IMG/VR virus record: IMGVR_UViG_3300036770_002724
Coordinates: 62,001-126,000 of that record
Source: a virus
Strand: one strand, 5' to 3'
Length of the DNA stretch: 64,000 bases
The number at the start of each line of letters is the position of its first letter. The first letter of the stretch is position 1. Under the pieces are notes generated by a model that ran no database searches, was not told the origin of the DNA, and worked only from the letters and a program-made list of their open reading frames with translations. The position numbers and the translations under genes are program-made. Shown here piece by piece: positions 5,679 through 62,079 of the stretch.

Positions 5679-6464
5679 CTAGCGCGTAGCTAGGTGGGTC
5701 TCGACCTTTCTCACCGCTTCGGAGAGGCGTTTCGACAGGTCCTCGAAGGTTGCCCCCGACACCGTGCTATCGCGAAACAGCTTTTTGTGTTCGGGTCTTT
5801 TCGGGGTGATCGTGAGTTTATAGGCCCCTTCCTTCCCCGTGATCCGGATACTCCCGTTCCCGAAAAAGTCTTCTCCCTGGCGAACAATCAACGCTTTCTG
5901 TTCGTTCAGGGTCGGACCCTTCCGCTCTTTGATTTTCTCCGGAAGGGGTTCGATCTCGACCCATTCCCCATCTTGGCTCACCGCGTAAAGGGGAAGCTGA
6001 TGGAGGTAGGGGTCGGATGAACTGAGGGCTTTTTTCCCTGTAAGGTTTTGCTGTACTTTGATTCCTGCCTTGAGCGCCCCCGATTTGTTCGATGTCTTCG
6101 TGAAGACGAGCCACGCCTTTCGATTCCAGTAGCGGACGCTAGGTTCCGCGAGAAGACCGAGTCCGGCGGGTTTGATGAGCGGACGGGCGTCTAGTACCTG
6201 GGAAGGGCTTCCCATCTTGCGCTCGATCTCGGAGATCGCCCTGGTCGTAGGGGGTGAGGGGTCTTCCTCTCCGACGTCGAAGAATTCAAAGCCGTCGAAA
6301 GCGGAGGTTTTTTCTCGCGGTCCTTCTCGTCGGGGGCCTGATGAAGTTCGACTGTTCCCTGTAACGGTAAGTTCTCCGCCTCTCTTTTTCAGCAGAGGGA
6401 GGAGTTGGGATCGAAGCTCAGGTTTGGAGAACGCGAGACGGATGACCTTGGACCGTAGGCTCAT
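5679..6464 (-). CDS. Tagged accessory protein, 261 aa
   Basis: A protein of unknown function that begins with the shared tag: LRSKVIRLA at 3-11, PELR, then LLPLLKK. Residues 28-90 are low-complexity and charged; the rest is a soluble mixed alpha/beta sequence with no motif I recognise. Its codon bias and GC look like the phage average. It lies within the segment bracketed by the 76-bp repeats, on the opposite strand to both neighbours. Confidence 0.7.
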   Translation of the reverse strand: MSLRSKVIRLAFSKPELRSQLLPLLKKRGGELTVTGNSRTSSGPRREGPREKTSAFDGFEFFDVGEEDPSPPTTRAISEIERKMGSPSQVLDARPLIKPAGLGLLAEPSVRYWNRKAWLVFTKTSNKSGALKAGIKVQQNLTGKKALSSSDPYLHQLPLYAVSQDGEWVEIEPLPEKIKERKGPTLNEQKALIVRQGEDFFGNGSIRITGKEGAYKLTITPKRPEHKKLFRDSTVSGATFEDLSKRLSEAVRKVETHLATR

Positions 6465-7678: not shown

Positions 7679-8497
7679 TTACCGAAGAGCCGACCGGATG
7701 TAATCCATCCACACGTCGTCGCGCGCCCACTGGGTCGCTTGGATGTCGATGCTCTTGAGATCAATGCCTTTGCGAGCGACATAGGCGTCGACCCGGTCGA
7801 GATTCAACAGTTTGTCGTACAGCTTGCCCGTGACGAACGCTTTGGCTTGTCGCTCTACTGAAGACCCTTCAGGGTCGGCCTTGAACCCCAGCGGCGTCAC
7901 TCCGCGCTCTACGTCTGAGAGAGCGCGGTCCATCGCAGGGCGAACCTCGCGGTCGAAGTACTCTCGCACTAGGTCGTCCACCTTGCGCTGGGTGTCCGTC
8001 TTGAGTTCCTCGACCCACTGTTCCAAGGCACGGGCGTTTTCATCTTCGCGACGGGACATCTCCCGCTCGATCTTGTTGTATTCTTGGTGGGTCACCCGGT
8101 TGATTTCGTTCTTCTTATCCAGTGCCCGGATCAGTCCTGCGTACTCACGAGCCCCACCTACTTCCTTGAGGTTTCCATCCGTCACCCGCCACATGGACAC
8201 TTCCTGTTTGTCCGTGTCGTACACCCATAGGTATTTCCATTGAGGCCCACTTCGGACGCGGATCTCTCGGGCGCCGGGTCCGCCGACCTCGGGCTCTTCA
8301 GCCGTGTCTCCGGCCAGGCTTCCGGAGTGCGTGGACAGGACGTATTTCGTTCCTGCGACGGTCTCAGTGTGCGTGTTCCGCACGAAGGGCCGGATCGGGA
8401 TGATGTCCACGGCAGTTTTCAGAAGGGGCAACAGGTGGGGGCGAAGCTCAGGCTTGGCGTGGGCCAGCCTGATGACCTTGGATCGTAGGCTTGCCAT
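7679..8497 (-). CDS. Tagged accessory protein, 272 aa
   Basis: Begins with the shared tag (LRSKVIRLA at 4-12, PELRPHLLPLLK). The middle of the protein (about 120-185) is highly charged and should form a long coiled coil (KKNEINRVTHQEYNKIEREM and following). The C-terminal 70 residues are a compact mixed domain. No catalytic motif is seen and the function is unknown. It ends 178 bp after the metalloprotease gene and is followed on the same strand by two more tagged genes. Confidence 0.7.
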   Translation of the reverse strand: MASLRSKVIRLAHAKPELRPHLLPLLKTAVDIIPIRPFVRNTHTETVAGTKYVLSTHSGSLAGDTAEEPEVGGPGAREIRVRSGPQWKYLWVYDTDKQEVSMWRVTDGNLKEVGGAREYAGLIRALDKKNEINRVTHQEYNKIEREMSRREDENARALEQWVEELKTDTQRKVDDLVREYFDREVRPAMDRALSDVERGVTPLGFKADPEGSSVERQAKAFVTGKLYDKLLNLDRVDAYVARKGIDLKSIDIQATQWARDDVWMDYIRSALR

Positions 8498-8506
8498 GTG
8501 ATTCGC

Positions 8507-9079
8507 TCAGGGTGCATGGAGGTGGATCTGGATGGTGATAAGCAGGTCTTTTGCGAGTTGCTCGTTGATCGTCTTTCGCATCCGGTCGAACCGCATTTCG
8601 GCAATTTCGTAGTGACCTGTGGGGTCAACGTCGTCGAGGTATTTGCTAAGGTTCGTTATCTCTCCCTTCTCGAACACCTGAAAAAGCTGTTTGAGTGGAA
8701 GTTTGATGCTTGGGTCTTGGCTCAAGAACGCGATGTAATCGCCACCCCACTTGTTCTTGATATAGTTCAAGAGTGAGGTGTCCAGATTAGCGTCGAGTGG
8801 TCCATCCACATTGAAGTCGTACCCCATGAAGTATGACTCCTCCACCCGGCGTTTCCCTGTTTCTTTGACGTACTTCCTGAGCCACGGGCTCTTCCTCATC
8901 TTGGCGAGAGCCTTTTGGTAGAGCCCTTCCATTTTCGGGTTCTGGCGGGTGGGCTTGGACACGTCATACCAGGACATGTCGTATATCGACGTCGACGCTT
9001 CTTTCAAGAGGGGCAGCAAGTGAGACCGAAGCTCAGGACGCTGGTGCGCGAGGCGGATGACCTTGGATCGTAGGCTCAT
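8507..9079 (-). CDS. Tagged accessory protein, 190 aa, with L-K-E-A junction
   Basis: The N-terminal tag (LRSKVIRLA, PELRSHLLPLLK) is followed directly by EAS, giving L-K-E-A, which fits the (L/I)-x-E-(A/G/S) site of T4-type prohead proteases. The remainder is a soluble, Lys/Tyr-rich domain with no recognised family. The first 30 bases are nearly identical at DNA level to the starts at 5679-6464 and 7679-8497. It stands 9 bp upstream of the 7679-8497 gene in transcription order. Confidence 0.7.
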   Translation of the reverse strand: MSLRSKVIRLAHQRPELRSHLLPLLKEASTSIYDMSWYDVSKPTRQNPKMEGLYQKALAKMRKSPWLRKYVKETGKRRVEESYFMGYDFNVDGPLDANLDTSLLNYIKNKWGGDYIAFLSQDPSIKLPLKQLFQVFEKGEITNLSKYLDDVDPTGHYEIAEMRFDRMRKTINEQLAKDLLITIQIHLHAP

Positions 9080-24123: not shown

Positions 24124-27100
24124 ATGGCATTTCCGAATGATCAGTACGCCCCTCCTGGGGTATACACCCAGACCAACTTTGAGAACCCGCTGGCCTCGAC
24201 CCTTGCTTCGGTCAAGGTGCCCGTGATGATCGGGGAGGGAAACGAGTCCCTCTTTCAGCGAAACCTCGAAGTCGTCCGGGGTTCCTCGAAGTCCGTAGAC
24301 ATCTTTGTTCCCCAGGAGGACGAGACGGGTCGGGCGGTCGTTTCGATTTCCCAGACGGGCCAGGTGACCCTCGGGGACTTCGACGGAATCCGCACCCGTT
24401 TCCGGGTCCGCCAGTTTCCCATCGTCACGGGCGACGGGACCGCGACGACCACGAACAATCGGTCGGACGTTCAAGTCACGACGACGAACAATCAGCCCCT
24501 CGTGGTCCTCTCGGTCGATGGCGCTCGGGGCATCATCGAACTGGCCCAGCCCCCGGCGGTCGGTCAGGTCGTCCGCTGCTCTTACTACTTTGACCGGACG
24601 GACACCCTGGCGACCGACAACGTGTCGGATCAGGTGACCCCGACTCCGGCTCTTATCCGAGCCGTCACCGGGATCATCGACGCCAACTCCCCGAACCAGA
24701 CGGGTCCGCAGACGCCCCTCACTTTCTACGGGGACGTCCTGAACTCGCTCGGTCAGGTGGTCGTTCCGGCGAACAACGTCCTCCTGCTTACCGTGGACGG
24801 GGTCGGACGGAACATCGTCATTCCGCCTCGCACCGGGTACACGATGGCTCAGGTGGCTTCGGCCATCTCGGCGGCGGCGGTCGGAACGCTCACCGCTTCG
24901 ACCTTCGTGAACCAGTACGGTATGTCCGCCCTCTCCCTCTCGGCGGACTTTGACATCACCGTAGGGGCAGGGTCGGCTAACGCGCTCCTGGGCCTGGTCG
25001 AAGGGGCTTCGTCGAACCGGACGAATGTCTTTTACGTCTTCAACGGGCCGATCACCGACGGCTCAAACGGCGGCGTGACCACCACCGACACCGCACACGT
25101 CACCGTGAAGGTCGATGGGCGTCAGGTCATCCCGACCAAGGTAGACGGTACGACCCGGGCGGTCACGCTCCCCTACGCGCCCAAGGCGGGCTCGACGGTC
25201 GCGATCACCTACTACTGGAACACTTGGCAGGATACGTTCGATTACCTTGCGAACATCGGGGTCAGCCAGATCACCGCTTGCGGCTTTACCCCGGGCGGTT
25301 CGGACTACATCCAGGGGGCCGACTTCATCCTCAAGGATGACAAGGTCGTCTGGGGTACGGCTTCTTTGGTGGCGGCGGGGGTCAATACCTCGGGGAGCGA
25401 GTTCTTCAACGAGTCGAAGATCACTCCGGTCCTCGTGGACAACAAGACCTTCCTCTCGCCGTGCGACCCTATCGTGGACGTGACCACGGGCGTCGCTTCG
25501 GCGCGGGACTTCACCCTTCCGTTCCAGCCGACCCTCGGAAACGGTCGAGACACTTCGCTCGGCCAGAGCCTTTTCCAGAGCGTCAGCAACGGGCGTATCG
25601 ACCTCCCGGTCAATCGCCCAGACGTGATCGACGCCTACTGGGGCTATGACGTTCCCGACGCTCTCGCTCGCGGGAAGATCAACGTCACCAAGGTCGATGG
25701 TCTGGTCATCACCCTGGAGTCGGATGTCCCGGTGGGGGCGAACGTCTACGCGACGTTCTACTACAACCGGCTGGTCGATCAGGAGTACACGCTTACCTGC
25801 ACGATTCCCGGGGTCTCGGGTGTCGGTCAGTACACGATTCAGGACAATGGCGCGAACGACCTCTTCAACGCCAAGTTCCCCACTAGCTCGAAAGGTTCGT
25901 CGCTCAACGGCGTGACCATCGAGTTCCCGTCAGGCTCGGAGTTGACTCCCGACCTTCGTCACGAGGGGTTGAGCGGGTCGGACTTCATTGGTCCGGTCGA
26001 AGAAACCGTGACCGTCCAGTTCGCCTCTCGGTGGGCGGGTCCGGCTCGGTTCTCCCTTCCGGGTTCGGCTCCATACCAGTTCATCCCGGGCCAGTCGGAT
26101 CGTCTGCGGATCCAGATCGACGGTTCGGATCTCGTGTCGGGCCTTACGGGCGCGAGCCTCAACGCGATCACGACTTCGACGAGCGCGTTTGGCAGCCTCC
26201 TCGGAAACGAGATTGCGTACACGGGCGGGACGGGCGCTACGGTCGGCCTGACCTACAGCCTAGACTCCGATGAGACGGTCAGCCTTCTCATCGACGGTTC
26301 GGATGTCGAGGTCACGGTCCCGGCGGCGAACAACGTCAACGCTAGCGTTTTCGTGGATCGCATCAACGAGGCGGCGTCGGGTCACTCCAGCACGGCGGCG
26401 GCGGGTGCAGCGGCGAACACCGAGATCGTCCTCAACGCGACGCCTCGGTCGAGCATCAACGGCTACTATGTGGGCTGGGTGGTCGTCATCGGTAACGGCG
26501 CAGCCGGTGCCGTTGCGGGTACGACGGCGGTCGTTACCGCGTACAACGGGTCCACGGGCGTCGCGACCGTGGGTTCTTCGCTCGGTGGTATCCCGCTGGC
26601 TCTCGACCCATACCACATCTACAATCCGACGGCTCGAAGCTACCTGAAGGGTGCGACGAAGTTCAGCGGTCCCGTCACGATCACGGCGGGTCAGCACGAC
26701 GACCTCCAGTTTACCTACATTGGAACGCCTTCTGGAACCTTCACGGATACCATCACGATCACGGCGGGGACTTACGCGAGCGTCGCAGCCCTCGTGACCG
26801 AGATCGAGACCCAGCTTGCGGCTTCCATCGGCGGTGCGGGTGCGGCGTTCGCGGGCCTCGACATCGAATGTTCGGCGGACGCCGACGGACGGCTCCAGTT
26901 CGCTATCCAGCTTCCGGGTGCCGATTCGGCGGGGTCGCTCCAGTTCCTCAACGCAGCTTCGGTTGCTCAGGACTTCGCCATCCTCGCCGGACTCGATACG
27001 GCGGCGGCAAGCGGCGGCGGTCAGGCGGCGCTCATCCAGGCTCCGGTCGCGGTCCTCTATACGGTCACTTCGGGCGGTGTCCGACCGTATGACCGGATTA

Positions 27101-29400
27101 TCCTACGGAACCGGATTCTTTCGGGCGGCGGAGCCAACAGTTCGATGGCTCCGGCTTCTGCGGAAGCCCAGACGGGCCTCGTAGTCCGGGGTGGAACCGG
27201 GCTGACGAAGGCAGGTTTGGAGCAGGGGTCGTTCGCGGAGGCCACGGCGAAAGCGGTGGTTCGTGCGGCGACGATTGCGGGCGAGGTGGTTCAGGACGGC
27301 GGTTACAGCGCCAACAGCGAGCTTCAGGTCACGTTCTATGACGGGACCGGAAGCGTGGCGGCGAACAACCAGTTCGCCTTCACGATGGACGGAGTTGCGG
27401 TGAACTTCGCTTTCATCGCTTCCGCGACGGGAACCGTCACTCCGCTGGGTCCGATCACGACTGCGACTACGGTCCTCGGTCAGATTGCGGCGGCGATGGC
27501 GGCGGTCGCCGGGCAGCCCTTCGGTAACGCGGCGGCGATCATCGCGGCCCGCTATGTCCGTCAGGAAGGTCTGGGGATCCGGCTCACCAGTTCGCTCTTC
27601 TCGGAGCAGTCGGTCATTACCGTCGGTTCGGGGAGCGCCAACGCGGTCCTCGGATTCACGGCAGGGACCACGGTGCAGAGGACGCTGGTGACGGCTAAGG
27701 CTTTGGCTTCGGCGGTCATGGGTCAGCGTCACGCGACGTTCAGCACCCTCCTGCTCGGGCTCGCGTCGTCGAACACCTACTTCTTCGACGAAGCCTTGGC
27801 GGGCGTCATCGAGGATGCGGCGGGGGCGGAGTACCTGTACCTCCAGTCTCGGACGGTCGGGACTAGCTCCCAGGTTCGGATTCGCTTCACGAGCGTGGGC
27901 GGTATTCGGACCCAGGACGCGACGTTCCCGGGAACCGGCCTCGACGTTCAGGATTCGGCGGGCGACATCGGAGAGGCGGCGATCAACGGGTTCTTTGTGA
28001 CCTCGAACGTCGTGAACGGCTCCGGGTCGGCTAACGACTCCATCTTGAACAACGGGACCGGGTCGGACGGTGTGATCGGCCAGACGTACCGGGATGCGGT
28101 CACGGGCCTGACCTTCACCATCTTGCCGAGGGGCTTCCAGACGAACTCGACCGGCCCGTGGGTTGCGTATCCGACGGGGGCCAATGCGACGTTCCGGGTC
28201 CAGGTCTCGAAGACGGTCACCTGTGACGCGAACCTTCCGATCACCGCTTTGCCGGGGGTCGAGTTGAAGGTGGCGAACACCTTCAACGTAGCGGCGGGGG
28301 ACACGGGCATCGTCAGCACCTTCAAGCGAGGGGGCAACGAGCCTGCGATTGGCGACCTCTACTACGTCAGCTACATCTACGAGAAGCAGGACTACAACAC
28401 CCAGTTCTTCACGAAGATGTCGTCCATTGAGGCGGCGTTCGGTTCGATCTCGCCGGACAACCCGGTTTCCCTTGCGAGCTACCTGGCGATCTTGAACGGC
28501 GCGATCCTGATCGGGATCAAGCAGGTCAAGAAGGCAGAGGGGTCGCAGCAGGGCAGTTTGGAGTCGTACCGGGCGGCTATCGAGGATCTGGAAGGGGTGC
28601 AGCCGGGCCAAGTGGCTCCGGATCTCATCACTCCGCTTCGCGGGGATTCGCTGGAGCTATTCCAGATCCTCAAGAAGTCGAACGCGATCATGTCCTCGAT
28701 TCGCTATCGCTCGGAGCGGACGAGCATCATCGGGCTCTCGGCGGGGACGCTTCCTGATGCGGCGCAGCGGGTCGCGGAGCAGCTTCGCGATACTCGGATG
28801 CGTCTCGTCTATCCGGACATTGTGACCGTGGACATCACGGATGCCTTTGGCCGGATCAAGGAATACCTGGTAGACGGGACGTACCTTGCGGCGGCGATGA
28901 CGGGTTCGGTGGTCTCTCCGAACTACGACGTAGCGACTCCGTGGACGAACCGGCTTCTCACCGGGTTCAACAGTCTCGCTCGCATCCTCGATGCGGTCGA
29001 GATGAACCAGATCGCGGTGTCGGGCGTCACGGTGCTTGAGCAGCGGGGGAACAATATCCGGGTGCGCCACGGGCTTACCACGGACATGACCAACCAGCTA
29101 ACCAAGCTCCCGACGATCATCCAGATCGCGGATGAGGTTCAGCGTCAGGCTCGGGCGACGTTGGAGCGGTTCATCGGCCTCAAGTACCTGCCGGGCATCG
29201 CTTCGCAGGTCGAGGGTCGGTTGTCGATGATGTTCAAGAACCTGGTCGCCGCTCAGATTGTTGCGGCGTACACGGGGGTGAAGGCGACTCCGGATGCGGA
29301 GGATCCGACGCTCTTGAACGTGGAGGCGTACTACAGCCCGATCTTCCCGCTGCTGTACATCGTGATCACGTTCAACCTGCGGTCGCGGTTGGCTGCCTAG
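24124..29400 (+). CDS. Tail sheath protein, giant form (1758 aa)
   Basis: The C-terminal part (about 1395-1758) is the conserved contractile sheath core, with SLASYLAILNGAILIGIKQV, a MRLVYPDIVTVDITDAFG-like strand, PWTNRLLTGFNSLARILDAVEMN and a helix ending KYLPGIASQVEGRLS. The N-terminal PGVYTQTNFENPL is typical of sheath proteins. About 1200 residues lie between. They contain repeated modules: VDGxxGxIxLxxPPxxGxxVxxxYYY at about 130, 345 and 525, and flagellin-IN-like units ending VGxGSANAxLGF at about 279 and 1166. T4 gp18 has 659 residues, so these are large surface insertions. A strong terminator follows. Confidence 0.92.
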   Translation: MAFPNDQYAPPGVYTQTNFENPLASTLASVKVPVMIGEGNESLFQRNLEVVRGSSKSVDIFVPQEDETGRAVVSISQTGQVTLGDFDGIRTRFRVRQFPIVTGDGTATTTNNRSDVQVTTTNNQPLVVLSVDGARGIIELAQPPAVGQVVRCSYYFDRTDTLATDNVSDQVTPTPALIRAVTGIIDANSPNQTGPQTPLTFYGDVLNSLGQVVVPANNVLLLTVDGVGRNIVIPPRTGYTMAQVASAISAAAVGTLTASTFVNQYGMSALSLSADFDITVGAGSANALLGLVEGASSNRTNVFYVFNGPITDGSNGGVTTTDTAHVTVKVDGRQVIPTKVDGTTRAVTLPYAPKAGSTVAITYYWNTWQDTFDYLANIGVSQITACGFTPGGSDYIQGADFILKDDKVVWGTASLVAAGVNTSGSEFFNESKITPVLVDNKTFLSPCDPIVDVTTGVASARDFTLPFQPTLGNGRDTSLGQSLFQSVSNGRIDLPVNRPDVIDAYWGYDVPDALARGKINVTKVDGLVITLESDVPVGANVYATFYYNRLVDQEYTLTCTIPGVSGVGQYTIQDNGANDLFNAKFPTSSKGSSLNGVTIEFPSGSELTPDLRHEGLSGSDFIGPVEETVTVQFASRWAGPARFSLPGSAPYQFIPGQSDRLRIQIDGSDLVSGLTGASLNAITTSTSAFGSLLGNEIAYTGGTGATVGLTYSLDSDETVSLLIDGSDVEVTVPAANNVNASVFVDRINEAASGHSSTAAAGAAANTEIVLNATPRSSINGYYVGWVVVIGNGAAGAVAGTTAVVTAYNGSTGVATVGSSLGGIPLALDPYHIYNPTARSYLKGATKFSGPVTITAGQHDDLQFTYIGTPSGTFTDTITITAGTYASVAALVTEIETQLAASIGGAGAAFAGLDIECSADADGRLQFAIQLPGADSAGSLQFLNAASVAQDFAILAGLDTAAASGGGQAALIQAPVAVLYTVTSGGVRPYDRIILRNRILSGGGANSSMAPASAEAQTGLVVRGGTGLTKAGLEQGSFAEATAKAVVRAATIAGEVVQDGGYSANSELQVTFYDGTGSVAANNQFAFTMDGVAVNFAFIASATGTVTPLGPITTATTVLGQIAAAMAAVAGQPFGNAAAIIAARYVRQEGLGIRLTSSLFSEQSVITVGSGSANAVLGFTAGTTVQRTLVTAKALASAVMGQRHATFSTLLLGLASSNTYFFDEALAGVIEDAAGAEYLYLQSRTVGTSSQVRIRFTSVGGIRTQDATFPGTGLDVQDSAGDIGEAAINGFFVTSNVVNGSGSANDSILNNGTGSDGVIGQTYRDAVTGLTFTILPRGFQTNSTGPWVAYPTGANATFRVQVSKTVTCDANLPITALPGVELKVANTFNVAAGDTGIVSTFKRGGNEPAIGDLYYVSYIYEKQDYNTQFFTKMSSIEAAFGSISPDNPVSLASYLAILNGAILIGIKQVKKAEGSQQGSLESYRAAIEDLEGVQPGQVAPDLITPLRGDSLELFQILKKSNAIMSSIRYRSERTSIIGLSAGTLPDAAQRVAEQLRDTRMRLVYPDIVTVDITDAFGRIKEYLVDGTYLAAAMTGSVVSPNYDVATPWTNRLLTGFNSLARILDAVEMNQIAVSGVTVLEQRGNNIRVRHGLTTDMTNQLTKLPTIIQIADEVQRQARATLERFIGLKYLPGIASQVEGRLSMMFKNLVAAQIVAAYTGVKATPDAEDPTLLNVEAYYSPIFPLLYIVITFNLRSRLAA

Positions 29401-49731: not shown

Positions 49732-50156
49732 TCGGGCTCGTCCAGGTACACGGGATTTGCGCCTTCGGGAAGCGGCTCGACCTTGATCATGGATCGGCCA
49801 ACATAGCCCGTCACCGAATCCCTGTACTCGCATCCGGTACAGCGCACCGCTCCCGACCAAGGGGAGGAGAGCATGAGCCCCTTGGTCCGCTCCAGCCTTG
49901 CGTTGCACCGGGGGCAGTCGAAGCCTTCGGGCGCCGGTTCCCAGGAGATAGAGAAGAGGTTAGTTATCTGGAGCGGGATCGGGTTCTTCAGAGCTTCGAG
50001 AAGCAGCCGCGCTTGTTCGGTGGTGTCCGGCAACCGCTTCTTCAGGCACCACTTGCACGTCACGTCCGTCCAGTCGGCGGACTGTTGAGCGACGGCTTTA
50101 GGGGTGCGACCGCAGATCGGTTCGGCGTCCGGCTTTTCGCGGTAGTGGGTTTTCAT
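49728..50156 (-). CDS. Double zinc-ribbon protein
   Basis: A 142-residue protein with two metal-site pairs: CxxC at CKWC (34-37) preceded by C15, and CPRC (about 80-83) with CTGC (about 105-108). The second set is a typical zinc ribbon. The start MKTHYREKPDAEPICG matches other small phage proteins I have seen. It is coupled to the helix-turn-helix gene by an ATGA overlap, so it could be a nucleic-acid-binding partner. Confidence 0.65.
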   Translation of the reverse strand: MKTHYREKPDAEPICGRTPKAVAQQSADWTDVTCKWCLKKRLPDTTEQARLLLEALKNPIPLQITNLFSISWEPAPEGFDCPRCNARLERTKGLMLSSPWSGAVRCTGCEYRDSVTGYVGRSMIKVEPLPEGANPVYLDEPE

Positions 50157-50171
50157 GTCCTGCCTTTCGGG

Positions 50172-50342
50172 TCAAAGACCGATCTCAACGAAGCCTTCGG
50201 GGAGAGATTCTTCCGACACCCCGCTGAACGAGCACCTAGTACATCCTATGGCGACCCCTTCATCCGGGGGCGTAAGCGGGGTGGATTGAACATCGGACCC
50301 GCACTCCGGACAAGTCTTTGGGATGACGGGAGCGTCGCTCAT
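50172..50342 (-). CDS. Small zinc-finger protein, 56 aa
   Basis: A short protein with CPECG at 11-15 and CTRCS at 34-38, making one four-cysteine zinc site, in a Pro/Glu-rich context. GAGTAAGAGAGAAG before the ATG is a fair ribosome site, and it lies 15 bp upstream of the next gene in the same direction. Another four-cysteine protein follows at 50371, which supports it as a real gene. Confidence 0.65.
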   Translation of the reverse strand: MSDAPVIPKTCPECGSDVQSTPLTPPDEGVAIGCTRCSFSGVSEESLPEGFVEIGL

Positions 50343-50370
50343 CTTCTCTCTTACTCAAAAATCGTCTGTC

Positions 50371-50604
50371 TTACCGCTCGCCCGGCGGATAACATCGAGT
50401 GCAGCCGACGCCAGTCCCATCGACGGGGAACGGGCGAACCGGGGCTCCGCAGAGGTCGCACATCGCGCTAGGAAGCTCAAAGACCTCGGTCGGAGGTCCG
50501 ACCTCAGTACAGGGGTTTCGTTCCCGCTCGGGGAACGGGATCAGGTGTCGGTCCCCGACGAGGGTTCCGAAGGGAGGGGCGGAAGGGAAGTTTCGGTTCG
50601 TCAT
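50371..50604 (-). CDS. Small zinc-finger protein, 77 aa
   Basis: The C-terminal half holds CDLCG (about 49-53) and CTRCY (about 69-73), one four-cysteine site. It resembles the 50172 protein in the second half (GVGCTRC against AIGCTRC), so the two may be paralogues. The first half is Pro-rich. GTAAGAAG precedes the ATG. Confidence 0.6.
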   Translation of the reverse strand: MTNRNFPSAPPFGTLVGDRHLIPFPERERNPCTEVGPPTEVFELPSAMCDLCGAPVRPFPVDGTGVGCTRCYPPGER

Positions 50605-50643
50605 AGCTTCTTACCCGGTCATGTTTGATCAGAAACTGAGATT

Positions 50644-51231
50644 TCACCCCGCCTTCTTTTTCAAGATGAGGGGGCGAGTGAGGTCTCCCGGACGCAATAC
50701 CAAGAAATCCGTGCTGCCGTCAATTTGAAGAAAGTCCGCAGACCTCAGAAGCCCCTCTTCCCAGCAGGCTTGTACGACAAGCTGGTTTTCCATGATTGGG
50801 AGTCCTGCCCAGGTTTTGATGTCCATCCCGCTAGGGATCATCGTCCTGGTGCGGGAGAGCCACGGGGCGATCAGACGGTCGTCCCTCACGACGATGCTAT
50901 GCTGGGATGATCGTATGACGCTTCCAGGTCTCAATCTGAGGTCGTTGCGAAACGAAAGCGGGGTTTCTACGGAAACCCGAATGTCCTCTTCCACCCAGTT
51001 CAGTTCGACTTGTGTGTCCCGGAACTTCGGTACACACAGCCGCACATGGATCTGGTGCATTTCAGCCAGCCTGCTTGGGGCCGTGGCTGATGCGACATAG
51101 GCGTGGACTTCCAAGGCTTCGATCTGGTGAAGAACTTGGATGACTGCCAGAGGGAAAAGCGTTGTCAGGTAGTTGATGACCGTCTTCGTCCGTTCCAGGG
51201 CAACGGCTTCCTTCTGTTCGGCAGGTGTCAT
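50644..51231 (-). CDS. Unknown soluble protein, 195 aa
   Basis: A protein with a hydrophobic helix near the N-terminus (INYLTTLFPLAVIQVLHQIEAL) and a beta-rich remainder (VRLCVPKFRDTQVELNWVEEDIRVSV). No family or catalytic motif is recognised. Its start overlaps the stop of the 51228 gene by 4 bp, so the two are likely translated together. Confidence 0.6.
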   Translation of the reverse strand: MTPAEQKEAVALERTKTVINYLTTLFPLAVIQVLHQIEALEVHAYVASATAPSRLAEMHQIHVRLCVPKFRDTQVELNWVEEDIRVSVETPLSFRNDLRLRPGSVIRSSQHSIVVRDDRLIAPWLSRTRTMIPSGMDIKTWAGLPIMENQLVVQACWEEGLLRSADFLQIDGSTDFLVLRPGDLTRPLILKKKAG

Positions 51232-57803: not shown

Positions 57804-60800
57804 ATGAAGACCGCCGTTTTCTTTGTCGCCACGACGTACCGGCCCACGCTTCTTCGACAATCCTTGAAGCGGCTCACGAGGCAACGGGGCGTCCCTTCCG
57901 ATTGGAGGATCGAGGTCCATGTCGCTGGCGAGCCCGGAGATCCAGGAAAGGGGGTCGTATCGAATCACCCAGGGACTTTCTACCACGATGTCGGTAGCAG
58001 GTCGGTCACGGACAAGCTCAACTCGCTTCTGGTAGCCACCAAAAGCGATCTGGTGATGCTCGCGGACGATGACGACATCCAGTCATGGGATCGAGCGGCA
58101 GAAGCTATCAAAGCCTACGAGAACGGAGCGGAGTGGTCCTGTTCGGGGACGTGTCTCTACTACGATCTTCACCACGATCTGTTGACCCGGTGGACCGGGG
58201 TGTCCGCCGAAGGGCTCATCGGGACGATGGCTTCTTTCGCGACCCCCTTGCTCCAGGCGGTTCGCGGATGGCCCTCGGTGTCTCGCGGCAAGGACGGTCG
58301 GTTGGTAGCCCGGATACGGTCGCTCCGGCGTCCTGTTCGGTTCGCGGATTTGACGGTGGCTCTAGGCAACAAGACGATCTGCCTCCAACACGATAAGAAT
58401 CTTTGGAACCGCCCCCTTGTCCCTCAAGGGGCAACGGATCGTCGAGGTCGTCATGCTATCCTGGGCTTGGGGGGAATCGCGAGCAACGTCGCCCTTCTGG
58501 GGGAGGACACCGTAAGTCTCTTGACTGAAACGGCGGGAGAACTCAGGTCCAGAAAAGCCGAAAGCTCTTCCCTCCCGCCGCCTTCTCCATCCCAGCCTCC
58601 CCCTCCTATTCCGGCGAGGATTTCTGCCTATCTACCGAAGGCTCCTGCTCCGTTCCAGGCTCCGGCTCCTCCCTTGTCACCCGCTGTTCTGGAACGACCC
58701 CCGCGACCCGCACACCCGAAAGAAAGCCTTGGAACCGTTTGCGACGTACACGTCGCCATAACGACCTACAATCGTCCGGGTCCGCTTGCGGATCTTCTGA
58801 AGGACCTTGTTCGGGAGCGCGGGGATCGAAAGGTCCACGTCGTCATCTACGACGATGGAAGCGATCAGGATTACAGCGAAGTGCGCGCTTTCGCTATTTC
58901 CCAAGGGTGGTTGTTCCGTAGGTCGGATTCCAATCGGGGCAAGAAAGGCTACTACAGGACGGTGTCCGAGGCTCTGAAGGAAGCAGAGCGGAGTCAGACA
59001 GATCGCTTCCTGTTCATACAGGACGATATGCGCTTGTGTGCCGATTTCTTTAGTCGGGTCTTTGACTTGTGGGACCAGATCCAAGACCCCAAAAAAGTCT
59101 CGCTCTATCTTCTCAGGGACAGTAACAGGTCCGAGATCGGGACCGTCTGCTGGACTGGGTTTCGGTCCCGGGTCGAAGGTCCCGTCGAACGAACCCAATG
59201 GGTAGACTGCAACGCTTTCCTTTTCAACCGGGACTTCTTGGATGTCCTGGGCGCGGAGCTTCGACCCATACCGGAAAGCCGTTGGCTCAAAGGCGACGTC
59301 TTGTCCTCGGGTGTCGGCCAACAACTCAGCCTTCGTCTTCACCACGCCGGGAGGGGGCTCTACCGGAGTCTCTTGTCCTACGTCTCTCATTCCGAGGGTC
59401 CGTCTAGGATGAACCCGAAGATCCGAAAGAGGGTTCCGATGACGACAGAGTCCTTCGCAGACGAGAAAGTTGTTCAGAAGGCCCGCTACTCGGATAAAGT
59501 TACGGCCCCGGCCCTACCGGAAGCTGGACGAAAGTCGCTTCCTTCCGCCCAGACTGTCTCGGTCTTGATTGCCGCCTACAGGGCCGACAAGTGGCTGATC
59601 GAATCCGTGAATAGCGTTCTGAGCCAAGAACTTCCTCCTGGCTGGAATCTGGAAGTCCTCGTAGGGGTGGACGGTTGCCCGGAGACGCTCGCCGTCGCTC
59701 AGACTATTGAGGACAGGCGGTTTGGCGTGGTTTCCTTCCCGGTAAATAGCGGGACTTACGTCACCTTCAACTCCCTCGTTCCCTTGTCCAGAGGCTCTAT
59801 TCTTGTACGTCACGATGCGGATGACGTGATGCTTCCGACGCGCCTGCACAAGATGATCAGAGCGTTCGAGGACCCGGAGGTGGGCCGCGTAACGACGTGG
59901 GTCGCGGAAAAAAATGTATACCCTGAGCCTCTTATAGAGTCCCCCTCTAAGGGCCGCAAAATACGCGACGGAACGTGGTCTTACCGTCGAGATGTCTTTG
60001 AGAATCTTCTCGGAGGTTTCCTACCTTGGAGGTGTGCGGCAGACACGGAAATGGATCTCAGGTCTCGTTCTTTGGGGGTCAAGTCGCACATAGTGTGTGA
60101 ATACTTATATCTTCGACGTTCGCATCCCGGCCAACTCACTCAGACTGAAGAAACGGGCTACGGAAGCGCCCTTCGGAAAGACTACGCGAAGCGTATAGAC
60201 GAATTGATAATAGAATACGCGGCGAATAAGCCTAAGCCCGTCGTCCCCACCAGAGTTGAGGGGGTCAGGCTTGGGGGCTTGTTCTCCGACAAGATCACAG
60301 CCTCGATGGCTTCGATCCCCGGTCGTCGCGAAGGGCTTGAAAAGGTTGTCCGAAGCCTGCTCCCGCAGGTCGATCACCTGAACGTCTACCTGAATGAGAC
60401 CCCTTCGATTCCGGGGATTGAGTATCCGCACACCCCGGATTTCTTGAGACACCCTAAGATCACGGCGATCTGGTCACGGGATACGCCGTTCGGAGATAGA
60501 GGGGATGCCGGGAAGTTCTACTGGGCGGATGAGGTCCAGGGTTACCACGTCATCTGCGACGACGACCTCCTATACCCTTCAGACTTCGTTGAGACGTTGA
60601 TCGCGGGTGTCGAAAGGTACGGTCGAAAGGCTGCGGTCGGGTTCCACGGGGCCGTGCTTACCGAACCTTTCACCGAATACTACAGGTCGCGCCGGGTTTA
60701 CCACTTTCAGCGATCCCTCGACGCCGACGCTCCCGTTCACGTCCTCGGGTCAGGCACGCTCGCCTACCATACAAGCGCGCTCGTCTTGACGCGAGAGGAC

Positions 60801-61718
60801 TTCAGAACGGCGAACATGGCTGACATCTGGTTTGGCTTGAAAGCCCAGCGAGAAGAGGTTCTTCTAGTCTGTCTGGCCCACAAAGAAGGGTGGTTGACGG
60901 ACGATTCGTCCACAAGGACGGATTCGATCTACGCGCACTCAATCAAGAAGGCTCAGACTCAAAAGAACACGGCGGATCTACAGACGAAGGTAGTCAAAGA
61001 GTCTTGGCCTTGGACGCTCCCAGTAGACAGGAAGGGAGGGGCCGTCTGCAAATCCGATCCTTCGGTACTTGAGGTCAAAGGACCGACTCGGACTGCTAGG
61101 ATCTCGGTCGAGTCTGGAGACCATACCCACAAGTTCATCTGCGCTACAGGGACCTACTACGAGTTCGACCTTCTTCATGCCGTTCGAGACCTGAAGATAG
61201 AAGGGCTCTATGTTGACGTTGGGGCTAATACGGGGAACCATACGACGTTCTTCCGTCTGGAGTGCCCTTCGACTCGGGTGGTAGCTATCGAGCCCGACTC
61301 GGAAAACCTGGCCCATCTTTACAGGACGATCCGTCTGAACGACCTCGAAGAGTCCGTGGACGTGCGACCTGTCGCGATCCACCCGACGCTTTCTCGCGTT
61401 TCGATGGTCCAAGGTATCCCGAAAAACAAAGGGACCATGCGAATCGAAGGCGAGGGGGACATCGAGGCTCAGACCTTGGATCGTTGCCTGGAAGGTCTTG
61501 AACCCGCCTTGATCAAGATCGACGTCGAGGGCTTGCCCCTAGAAGTGCTTCGCTCTGGGAGGAGTATCGTCGAGCGTTGCCTTCCCGTGATTGTCTGCGA
61601 AGCCAATGATCACGAGGCTTCCTCGATAGACGCTTTCCTCGGTGATTTGGGGTACGAAAGAAACCCCAAGCGGTACTGCGCCACCGCGACTTGGATATGG
61701 CAGGCGAAGACCGGGTGA
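57804..61718 (+). CDS. Multi-domain glycosyltransferase-FkbM methyltransferase fusion (1304 aa)
   Basis: Four glycosyltransferase-like domains and one methyltransferase in a row. Domain 1 (1-210) has VFFVATTYRPTLLRQSL and a DDDD metal loop (LVMLADDDDIQ). A Pro-rich linker (255-305) follows. Domain 2 (312-545) has VAITTYNRPGPL, VIYDDGSDQ and FIQDDMRLC. Domain 3 (583-790) has SVLIAAYRADKW and LVRHDADDVM. Domain 4 (828-1070) has ITASMASIPGRREGL and HVICDDDLLYPSDF. Residues 1131-1304 are FkbM-type: YVDVGANTGNHTTFFR, VVAIEPDSE and LIKIDVEG. Each GT domain has a DxD-like site. The substrate (virion glycan, host glycan or modified DNA base) is unknown. Confidence 0.85.
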   Translation: MKTAVFFVATTYRPTLLRQSLKRLTRQRGVPSDWRIEVHVAGEPGDPGKGVVSNHPGTFYHDVGSRSVTDKLNSLLVATKSDLVMLADDDDIQSWDRAAEAIKAYENGAEWSCSGTCLYYDLHHDLLTRWTGVSAEGLIGTMASFATPLLQAVRGWPSVSRGKDGRLVARIRSLRRPVRFADLTVALGNKTICLQHDKNLWNRPLVPQGATDRRGRHAILGLGGIASNVALLGEDTVSLLTETAGELRSRKAESSSLPPPSPSQPPPPIPARISAYLPKAPAPFQAPAPPLSPAVLERPPRPAHPKESLGTVCDVHVAITTYNRPGPLADLLKDLVRERGDRKVHVVIYDDGSDQDYSEVRAFAISQGWLFRRSDSNRGKKGYYRTVSEALKEAERSQTDRFLFIQDDMRLCADFFSRVFDLWDQIQDPKKVSLYLLRDSNRSEIGTVCWTGFRSRVEGPVERTQWVDCNAFLFNRDFLDVLGAELRPIPESRWLKGDVLSSGVGQQLSLRLHHAGRGLYRSLLSYVSHSEGPSRMNPKIRKRVPMTTESFADEKVVQKARYSDKVTAPALPEAGRKSLPSAQTVSVLIAAYRADKWLIESVNSVLSQELPPGWNLEVLVGVDGCPETLAVAQTIEDRRFGVVSFPVNSGTYVTFNSLVPLSRGSILVRHDADDVMLPTRLHKMIRAFEDPEVGRVTTWVAEKNVYPEPLIESPSKGRKIRDGTWSYRRDVFENLLGGFLPWRCAADTEMDLRSRSLGVKSHIVCEYLYLRRSHPGQLTQTEETGYGSALRKDYAKRIDELIIEYAANKPKPVVPTRVEGVRLGGLFSDKITASMASIPGRREGLEKVVRSLLPQVDHLNVYLNETPSIPGIEYPHTPDFLRHPKITAIWSRDTPFGDRGDAGKFYWADEVQGYHVICDDDLLYPSDFVETLIAGVERYGRKAAVGFHGAVLTEPFTEYYRSRRVYHFQRSLDADAPVHVLGSGTLAYHTSALVLTREDFRTANMADIWFGLKAQREEVLLVCLAHKEGWLTDDSSTRTDSIYAHSIKKAQTQKNTADLQTKVVKESWPWTLPVDRKGGAVCKSDPSVLEVKGPTRTARISVESGDHTHKFICATGTYYEFDLLHAVRDLKIEGLYVDVGANTGNHTTFFRLECPSTRVVAIEPDSENLAHLYRTIRLNDLEESVDVRPVAIHPTLSRVSMVQGIPKNKGTMRIEGEGDIEAQTLDRCLEGLEPALIKIDVEGLPLEVLRSGRSIVERCLPVIVCEANDHEASSIDAFLGDLGYERNPKRYCATATWIWQAKTG

Positions 61719-61773: not shown

Positions 61774-62079
61774 GTGAGCAACCTTATCAGGCGCATCGCT
61801 TCGCGCTACATCCGAGCCGCCCGTTTCCGACGCGGGGATCTCGCGACTTACAAGGGTAAGACCTATCGGATCGGCTTCGCTGGTCCGACGAAGTTCGGGG
61901 ATCGGGCGAAGCTCGTGTTCCTCGACGGAAGCAAAGAGTTCTGGGTCGATCTTAGTCTCGTCTCTCCCGCAGAGGAGAGCGAGGAGCGCGTCTCCTGGGA
62001 GGAAGCCCAGCTTCTCGACGAAGACATGGGAATCTACCGGCCCGATAGCTACTACCGCAGCCGTTACCGCCGGGGCTGA
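61774..62079 (+). CDS. Small protein with RRIASRYIRAA leader
   Basis: A 101-residue protein, GTG start. Residues 1-18 are a basic amphipathic helix (NLIRRIASRYIRAARF). Residues 19-70 look like a small beta-barrel (GDLATYKGKTYRIGF ... AKLVFLDGSKEFWVDLSLVSP) resembling an SH3-like fold. The acidic and Arg/Tyr-rich tail ends the protein. The RIASRY string also occurs near the C-terminus of the metalloprotease at 6556-7500. Confidence 0.65.
   Translation: MSNLIRRIASRYIRAARFRRGDLATYKGKTYRIGFAGPTKFGDRAKLVFLDGSKEFWVDLSLVSPAEESEERVSWEEAQLLDEDMGIYRPDSYYRSRYRRG

Follow-up and report, generated by a model that had tools for sequence, protein, structure and literature searches.

A five-domain polypeptide gene in a tailed phage

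The window analysed here is a 64,000-nucleotide stretch (positions 62,001 to 126,000) of the 139-kb IMG/VR record IMGVR_UViG_3300036770_002724, which carries the terminase, portal and capsid genes of a tailed phage. Near the end of the window, a single unbroken ATG frame encodes a polypeptide of 1304 aa with four glycosyltransferase (GT) domains, D1 to D4, followed by an FkbM-family methyltransferase domain (Table 1). The third-position GC of the frame (0.66) falls at the low end of neighbouring calls (mostly 0.65-0.8) and every domain has independent homologues, which together support a real gene. The surrounding genes are of nucleotide metabolism or of unknown function, with a dTMP kinase and a dCMP-deaminase-like gene present in the phage, and since the capsid gene (50139-51011 of the record) lies ~69 kb upstream in the record, the gene sits outside the head block.

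Table 1. Coordinates of the gene and its domains in the window.
Feature	Residues	Position	Strand	Motif	Basis
Polypeptide gene, 4 GT domains + FkbM methyltransferase, complete	1-1304	57804..61718	+		ORF, Pfam, NCBIfam
D1, GT-A domain	1-225	57804..58478	+	ADDDD 87-91	Relatives at 36-44% identity; Foldseek GT-A folds
Pro/Ala-rich D1-D2 linker	250-308	58551..58727	+		Translation
D2, GT2-like GT-A domain	309-560	58728..59483	+	QDD 406-408	Pfam, structure model, relatives
D3, GT2 domain	581-815	59544..60248	+	HDADD 670-674	Pfam PF00535; PDB GT2 matches incl. chondroitin synthase
D4, GT45/KfiA-type N-acetylglucosaminyltransferase-like domain	829-1072	60288..61019	+	CDDDLLYP 918-925	PmHS2, KfiA matches; relatives
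FkbM-family SAM-dependent methyltransferase domain	1100-1304	61101..61715	+		PF05050, TIGR01444, motifs

The original prediction of four GT-like domains and an FkbM methyltransferase in one polypeptide was confirmed by Pfam, NCBIfam, PDB sequence matches, relatives and Foldseek. PF00535 (GT2) matched the protein three times (best E 4e-26), and the methyltransferase domain scored well above the cut-offs of both PF05050 (E 8e-15; 55.8 bits vs 22.7) and the NCBIfam family fkbM_fam TIGR01444 (E 4e-21; 76.1 bits vs 37.7), with its SAM motifs intact (VDVGANTG 1137, AIEPD 1161, KIDVEG 1238). All four GT domains were also correctly said to retain acidic metal sites (ADDDD, QDD, HDADD and, at 918-921, CDDD) and not to be closely similar to each other, as their pairwise identity is 19-23%; recent internal duplication is thereby ruled out, the best internal BLAST match having an E value of 0.04. 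The structure model of D2 is a confident GT-A fold (pLDDT 86). Foldseek searches with D1 and D2 returned generic GT-A neighbours only, giving no donor assignment, and two long proteins from uncultured Caudovirales in BFVD, A0A6J5T3W3 (1119 aa) and A0A6J5LLV3 (1443 aa), contain a GT-A domain resembling D2, as judged by fold match and database title alone.

The fourth domain had been read as GT-like, and its identity was missed; on alignment evidence it is a GT45/KfiA-type GlcNAc-transferase domain. Its best PDB match is PmHS2, the heparosan synthase of Pasteurella multocida (E 1e-39; domain i-E 1.3e-33), with E. coli K5 KfiA also matched (E 2.3e-16). The alignment of D4 with the C-terminal GlcNAc-transferase domain of PmHS2 covers almost the whole of D4, and the DDD, YP.D and HG motifs are common to D4 and both enzymes, DDD and YP being invariant in the alignment that includes them. 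PmHS2 is, however, a two-domain capsule polymerase, whereas the phage protein adds D1 and the FkbM domain, and D2 and D3 are generic GT2 domains by sequence; the N-terminal GT2 domain of PmHS2, its GlcA-transferase part, matches D3 with just 17.8 bits, a generic GT2-level score.

Relatives in phages and bacteria

A search for close relatives with the whole protein returned one locus, and domain-level alignments were therefore used. Family searches undercount these GT domains, since at genome level PF00535 overlooked those of a related 402-kb jumbo phage (L010) which alignment-based searches recover. This jumbo phage, which shares 55% identity with ours over a 1758-aa protein and 56% over the terminase, encodes a single 1266-aa protein with the order D1-D4-D2-FkbM near the same dTMP kinase, indicating that the multi-GT plus FkbM composition has been kept while the order was shuffled. 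Fragments carrying the related 1758-aa protein yielded neither FkbM nor GT2 matches; as the dTMP-kinase neighbour is missing from all of them too, they say nothing on whether the lineage as a whole has kept the GT gene. D1 shares 36-44% identity with domains in L010, L087 and L096, and its homologue in L002 is a separate gene adjoining a GT45 gene (E 1.6e-4). Dozens of phage loci have a D2-type domain next to GT45 or joined to it in one protein. Independent multi-domain versions are found in L008, L009, L010, L087 and L096. Loss of catalytic residues in relatives, named beforehand as evidence against the proposal, was looked for in D2 and D4 and the residues were found to be kept: the DD of D2 in 16/16 sequences, and the DDD of D4, aligned with 30 dereplicated relatives, with a single exception at the first position (30/31) and none at the other two (31/31).

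Single-domain GT45 genes occur in many uncultivated phages, often beside GT2 and sometimes beside FkbM or sulfotransferase genes. At least two head gene families lie within 4 kb of the GT45 gene in 63 of 67 such loci, and after dereplication at 70% identity 14 of 18 are head-linked (binomial P 0.0013, computed against an assumed background of 40%). In head blocks the modules stand side by side as separate genes, with the gene orders portal-MuF-GT2-(FkbM)-GT45-S78 protease-capsid and terminase-GT-GT-Rhamno_transf-GT45-portal-protease-capsid, and enzymes found next to the GT45 relatives include sulfotransferase, pyruvyl transferase, PIG-L and FkbM. No GT45 match was obtained among 50,697 records of deposited phage genomes. 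The fused multi-domain GT45 proteins are placed differently, only 1 of 12 having two or more head gene families nearby and 11 of 12 lying outside head blocks, and D4 belongs to a clade (99/92 support) separate from that of the head-linked single-domain genes. Head-block linkage was for these reasons dropped as direct evidence for the 1304-aa gene.

The D4 clade mixes phage proteins with proteins from bacterial genomes. One of its members, L089, has the layout FkbM...GT45-GT2-GT25 in 1626 aa; its gene follows closely after those of an ABC-2 polysaccharide-type permease and an ABC ATPase, and the contig also carries ParA/ParB-like genes. FkbM-GT45 fusions are also present on Rhizobium chromosomes (L100 and others), and by eye a Legionella GT45 gene is placed among transporter genes. 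The bacterial fusion proteins (608-1626 aa) resemble the phage polypeptide in joining FkbM and GT45, but their order is reversed, with FkbM N-terminal, they lie on bacterial contigs and, in the case of L089, the locus is linked to an exporter.

Predicted activity, acceptor and alternatives

The proposal that one protein could build and cap an oligosaccharide is partly supported: the anatomy of the protein bears it out well, and one of the proposed targets is favoured. The anatomy is backed by sites that look active in each of the five domains, by the recurrence of GT2, GT45 and FkbM as neighbours or fusions, and by a viral precedent, and the 1304-aa protein very probably has the predicted build-and-cap activity. 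The precedent is A064R of chlorovirus PBCV-1, a GT-GT-methyltransferase polypeptide whose C-terminal sugar O-methyltransferase adds the cap to the last sugar of the glycan on the capsid protein, a process independent of host secretory organelles; together with A111/114R it shows that virus-coded polypeptides may hold several GT domains (PMC7826918). Like A064R, the phage protein combines two or more GTs in a single polypeptide with a sugar methyltransferase at its C-terminus. A064R differs in its length (638 aa), its two rhamnosyltransferase domains and its algal host, whereas the phage protein carries four GT domains, including one GT45, together with an FkbM-type methyltransferase, and its acceptor is putative. 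No chlorovirus chain appeared among the PDB sequence matches with E up to 1, a search in which only the solved part of A064R could match, and from the sequences the two proteins are analogous and not detectably homologous.

We infer what the enzyme does, from which donor sugars, in what order and when, and on which acceptor, as follows. The polypeptide would be a soluble, cytosolic assembly-line enzyme, which fits its lack of a membrane segment (the highest Kyte-Doolittle mean over 19 residues is 1.19). D1-D3 would each transfer one sugar, three in all, D4 would contribute GlcNAc with UDP-GlcNAc as the likely donor, and the FkbM domain would O-methylate a sugar hydroxyl, in the simplest form as a terminal cap. 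The product would be a short oligosaccharide, methylated and built during infection from the nucleotide sugars of the host, with a virion surface protein as the most likely acceptor; candidates include the Thr-rich collagen-like (G-X-T)n proteins and further fibre-like proteins that are coded downstream. In the record, collagen-like/fibre proteins are coded at 1-1389 and 130020-130532. The glycan may serve to shield or diversify the particle surface, and domain shuffling among related phages may alter its structure. A scan for the G-X-T repeat pattern in 22 records behind related loci found none besides this phage; as relatives lack such proteins, a collagen-like acceptor is not generally linked to these loci and was dropped as a general explanation, being a candidate for this phage only. 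For the whole statement, a cytosolic build-and-cap enzyme placing a short methylated GlcNAc-containing glycan on a virion protein, we estimate a probability of about 0.5.

Three targets had been put forward, namely virion protein, host surface glycan and a modified DNA base. The target is probably virion protein, favoured by the placement of the related cassettes among head genes. A serious rival is host surface glycan, given that polysaccharide export loci house some of the bacterial relatives; the enzyme would then make or remodel a lipopolysaccharide/O-antigen or capsule precursor at the cytosolic face, with FkbM capping the chain, for example in superinfection exclusion. The exporter-linked member of D4's own clade, the Rhizobium and Legionella genes and the capsule-making role of the founding GT45 enzymes all point this way, but the phage gene showed neither a membrane segment of its own nor an exporter or flippase nearby, head genes surround many of the phage relatives, and for a large and probably lytic phage long-term serotype conversion would be less useful, which leaves this reading somewhat unlikely.

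A role in producing a small soluble sugar, or in modifying one host protein or a metabolite, for instance as counter-defence, is improbable for the enzyme. FkbM enzymes also methylate natural products, and the gene lies among nucleotide-metabolism and unknown genes; four different GT domains nevertheless exceed the needs of such a task, and relatives adjoin sulfotransferase, pyruvyl transferase and PIG-L genes, which are typical glycan finishers. Glycosylation of a hypermodified base in the phage DNA looks very unlikely, despite the dTMP kinase and dCMP-deaminase-like genes and the common occurrence of phage DNA glycosyltransferases in work cited in PMC12619734. D2 matches phrog_842, an HMC glucosyltransferase family, at the chance level of E 0.14, PF00303, the family sought for a companion base-hydroxymethylating enzyme of thymidylate-synthase fold (thymidylate synthase/dCMP hydroxymethylase type), was absent from the 139-kb record, which may be incomplete, and the GT45 and FkbM relatives are tied to polysaccharide or head contexts instead of base-modification genes. 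That the polypeptide is decaying, or is an accidental fusion, and has little activity, a reading to which the slightly low third-position GC might point, is highly improbable given five intact active-site signatures, conserved across relatives where tested, and the independent multi-domain versions.

Possible virion glycans in uncultivated phages

Glycans on capsid and tail-tube subunits of mycobacteriophage virions act as a shield (Freeman et al., 2023, cited in PMC12619734), a role like that proposed here for a particle glycan. GT45 was found in none of the deposited phage records searched. The recurring modules point, tentatively, to a widespread and unrecognized virion-glycan system in uncultivated tailed phages, with a GT45 GlcNAc-transferase core, GT2 partners and swappable finishers (FkbM, sulfotransferase, pyruvyl transferase, PIG-L), which would usually lie in the head block, be fused into one build-and-cap polypeptide in large phages such as this one and give particles heparin-like or otherwise finished glycans. 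To our knowledge, very few cultivated systems have revealed glycosylated virions in tailed phages, and the head-block GT45 cassettes suggest that glycan-coated heads are possibly common yet unseen in uncultivated phages. As a single gene whose one protein can be purified and whose product mass spectrometry could read, the five-domain polypeptide makes a compact test case; if active, it would be an assembly line for a glycan within one protein, with a heparosan-type GlcNAc-transferase.

Anatomy of the five-domain protein

The open reading frame at 57804-61718(+) runs over 1304 codons, and its product joins four glycosyltransferase (GT) domains (D1-D4) and a C-terminal FkbM methyltransferase in one polypeptide, as originally predicted. 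The GT2 domains and FkbM scored well over the Pfam and NCBIfam cut-offs, residues 833-1070 (D4) are of the KfiA/heparosan-synthase (GT45) type (Pasteurella PmHS2, E 1e-39, PDB sequence search), support for D1 comes from its predicted fold and from homologues carried by one MAG contig and two large phage contigs, and D2 has a confident GT-A structure model. The GT domains are as unlike as claimed, sharing just 19-23% identity, and so are not recent duplicates. Their acidic motifs, said to be retained, and the SAM motifs of FkbM are all intact; in D4 and D2, which were checked for loss of catalytic residues in relatives, the motifs persist across 30 and 15 dereplicated homologues, respectively. 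No transmembrane segment was found in the protein.

Putative working and acceptor

That such a protein could build and cap an oligosaccharide is well grounded in this anatomy, and of the targets proposed (virion, host glycan or DNA) a virion protein is the favoured, if putative, one. Host nucleotide sugars would supply D1-D4, with D4 most likely adding GlcNAc, and methylation of a hydroxyl by FkbM would terminate or tag the chain. The acceptor would be cytosolic, such as a virion protein prior to assembly, which would suit a soluble enzyme without an exporter. Collagen-like proteins encoded in the virus record consist almost entirely of G-P-T/G-D-T triplets (see table). Threonine-rich collagen repeats of the Bacillus exosporium protein BclA carry O-glycosylation. 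Mimivirus encodes its own collagen glucosyltransferase (PMC9614988). Relatives are without such proteins, which are thus a candidate acceptor only.

Chlorovirus PBCV-1 offers the closest precedent: its A064R combines two rhamnosyltransferases with an O-methyltransferase, all serving the capsid glycan, and its A111/114R has three GT functions (PMC7826918). On paper the phage protein would work like A064R, but the two have no detectable homology. Phages do glycosylate virions, mycobacteriophage capsid and tail-tube proteins being examples (cited in PMC12619734).

The phage and its lineage

The record of 139,036 bases has genes for terminase, portal and the major head protein upstream of the window (positions 62001-126000) and therefore belongs to a tailed phage; its first base falls within a collagen-like gene, so it is probably incomplete. 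A 402-kb jumbo phage (the parent record of L010) shares 55% identity in a 1758-aa protein and 56% in terminase, and both phages keep a multi-GT and FkbM polypeptide near a dTMP kinase that they also have in common. Domain order differs (D1-D2-D3-D4-FkbM vs D1-D4-D2-FkbM), a reshuffling that would be compatible with selection for altered glycan structure.

The 1758-aa protein (24124-29400(+)), sheath-like at its N-terminus by eye and without a PHROG match, has relatives in 16 other IMG/VR contigs (45-69% identity) and marks a lineage of large phages. Four otherwise unlike window proteins share an N-terminal motif, perhaps a common sorting or cleavage tag.

Features of the phage record and of related loci
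Feature	Location	Remark
D2-D4 fusion	L008, L012, L050	
D4-D2 fusion	L015, L016	
GT4-D3-D4	L009	
D1-D4-D2-FkbM	L010	1266 aa
D1-GT4-radical SAM	L087:7959-11603	1214-aa phage protein; D1-type GT, GT4-type and radical SAM domains fused
Sulfotransferase-like gene beside GT45	L002:7474-7986, L030:8887-9423, L008:5165-6019	Unrelated phage contigs
PIG-L GlcNAc de-N-acetylase-like gene directly 3' of GT45-GT2 fusion	L015:9404-10408, L016:9230-10393	Pfam (L016), by eye (L015)
Collagen-like protein	G000:1-1389 (L003:1-1389)	Record start; 51 triplets in a row
Shorter collagen-like protein	G000:130020-130532 (L007:6020-6532)	~6 kb downstream of GT gene; long G-P-T/G-D-T and G-A-T runs across the two collagen-like proteins
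MSLRSKVIRLAHxxPELRSHLLPLLK-like N-terminal motif	window 5679-6464(-), 7679-8497(-), 8507-9079(-), 13649(+)	Four proteins

GT45 relatives and head-gene linkage

A GT45 alignment scanned against IMG/VR matched 111 loci, of which 80 were retained; most matches are single-domain genes of ~220 aa, and D2 is also present in 44 of 79 loci. Pfam and PHROGs searches on representatives identified portal, Mu F-like, S78 prohead protease, HK97-type capsid and terminase genes as neighbours. Three verified arrangements are clearly different from one another: portal-MuF-GT2-(FkbM)-GT45-protease-capsid, terminase-GTs-Rhamno_transf-GT45-portal-protease-capsid and portal-MuF-GT45-(sulfotransferase)-gp13-like capsid. 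A further pair of arrangements, in L012/L017 and in L015/L016, is less secure, as the capsid/terminase candidates there lack confirmed family matches; L016 has a portal gene. In many uncultivated phages (viral contigs L018-L084, e.g. L052:4456-11311), GT2, FkbM and GT45 genes lie between the Mu F-like head gene and the prohead protease/capsid. At least two head families occur within 4 kb in 63 of 67 single-domain loci vs 1 of 12 multi-domain loci; the P value for this linkage uses a background of 40%, which was assumed rather than measured for small phage genomes. Sulfotransferase-like neighbours and, in L008, an additional polysaccharide pyruvyl transferase near GT45 hint that phage glycans may be sulfated or pyruvylated.

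GT45-like domains were also found in 66 bacterial or archaeal contigs. FkbM-GT45 fusions of Rhizobium (L100:5239-7065; also L099-L105, L107, L111, L115-L117) are likely surface polysaccharide enzymes, and a 1626-aa FkbM...GT45-GT2 protein adjoins an ABC-2 exporter (bacterial contig L089). By eye, some of these contigs look prophage-like (L098 has the gene order of L012, L093 has tail-fibre-like and sulfotransferase-like neighbours), and a PIG-L-like gene lies beside the Legionella GT45 (L094). In a tree of 77 domains, D4 pairs with L008 (support 100/99) and then joins L010, L009, L096, L093, L089 and L090 (99/92), most head-linked single-domain genes form a separate supported set, and KfiA and PmHS2 fall elsewhere. 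Head linkage therefore bears on cousins of the gene, not on the gene itself.

Three different queries found no GT45 relatives, head-block GT2/FkbM/GT45 sets included, in 50,697 deposited phage genomes, and no description of phage GT45 genes was found in the literature searched, weak evidence given that subscription papers fell mostly outside its coverage. The five-domain protein is a known type of enzyme in a novel variant form, and the wider family of head-block GT45 cassettes is a by-product more interesting than the protein itself.
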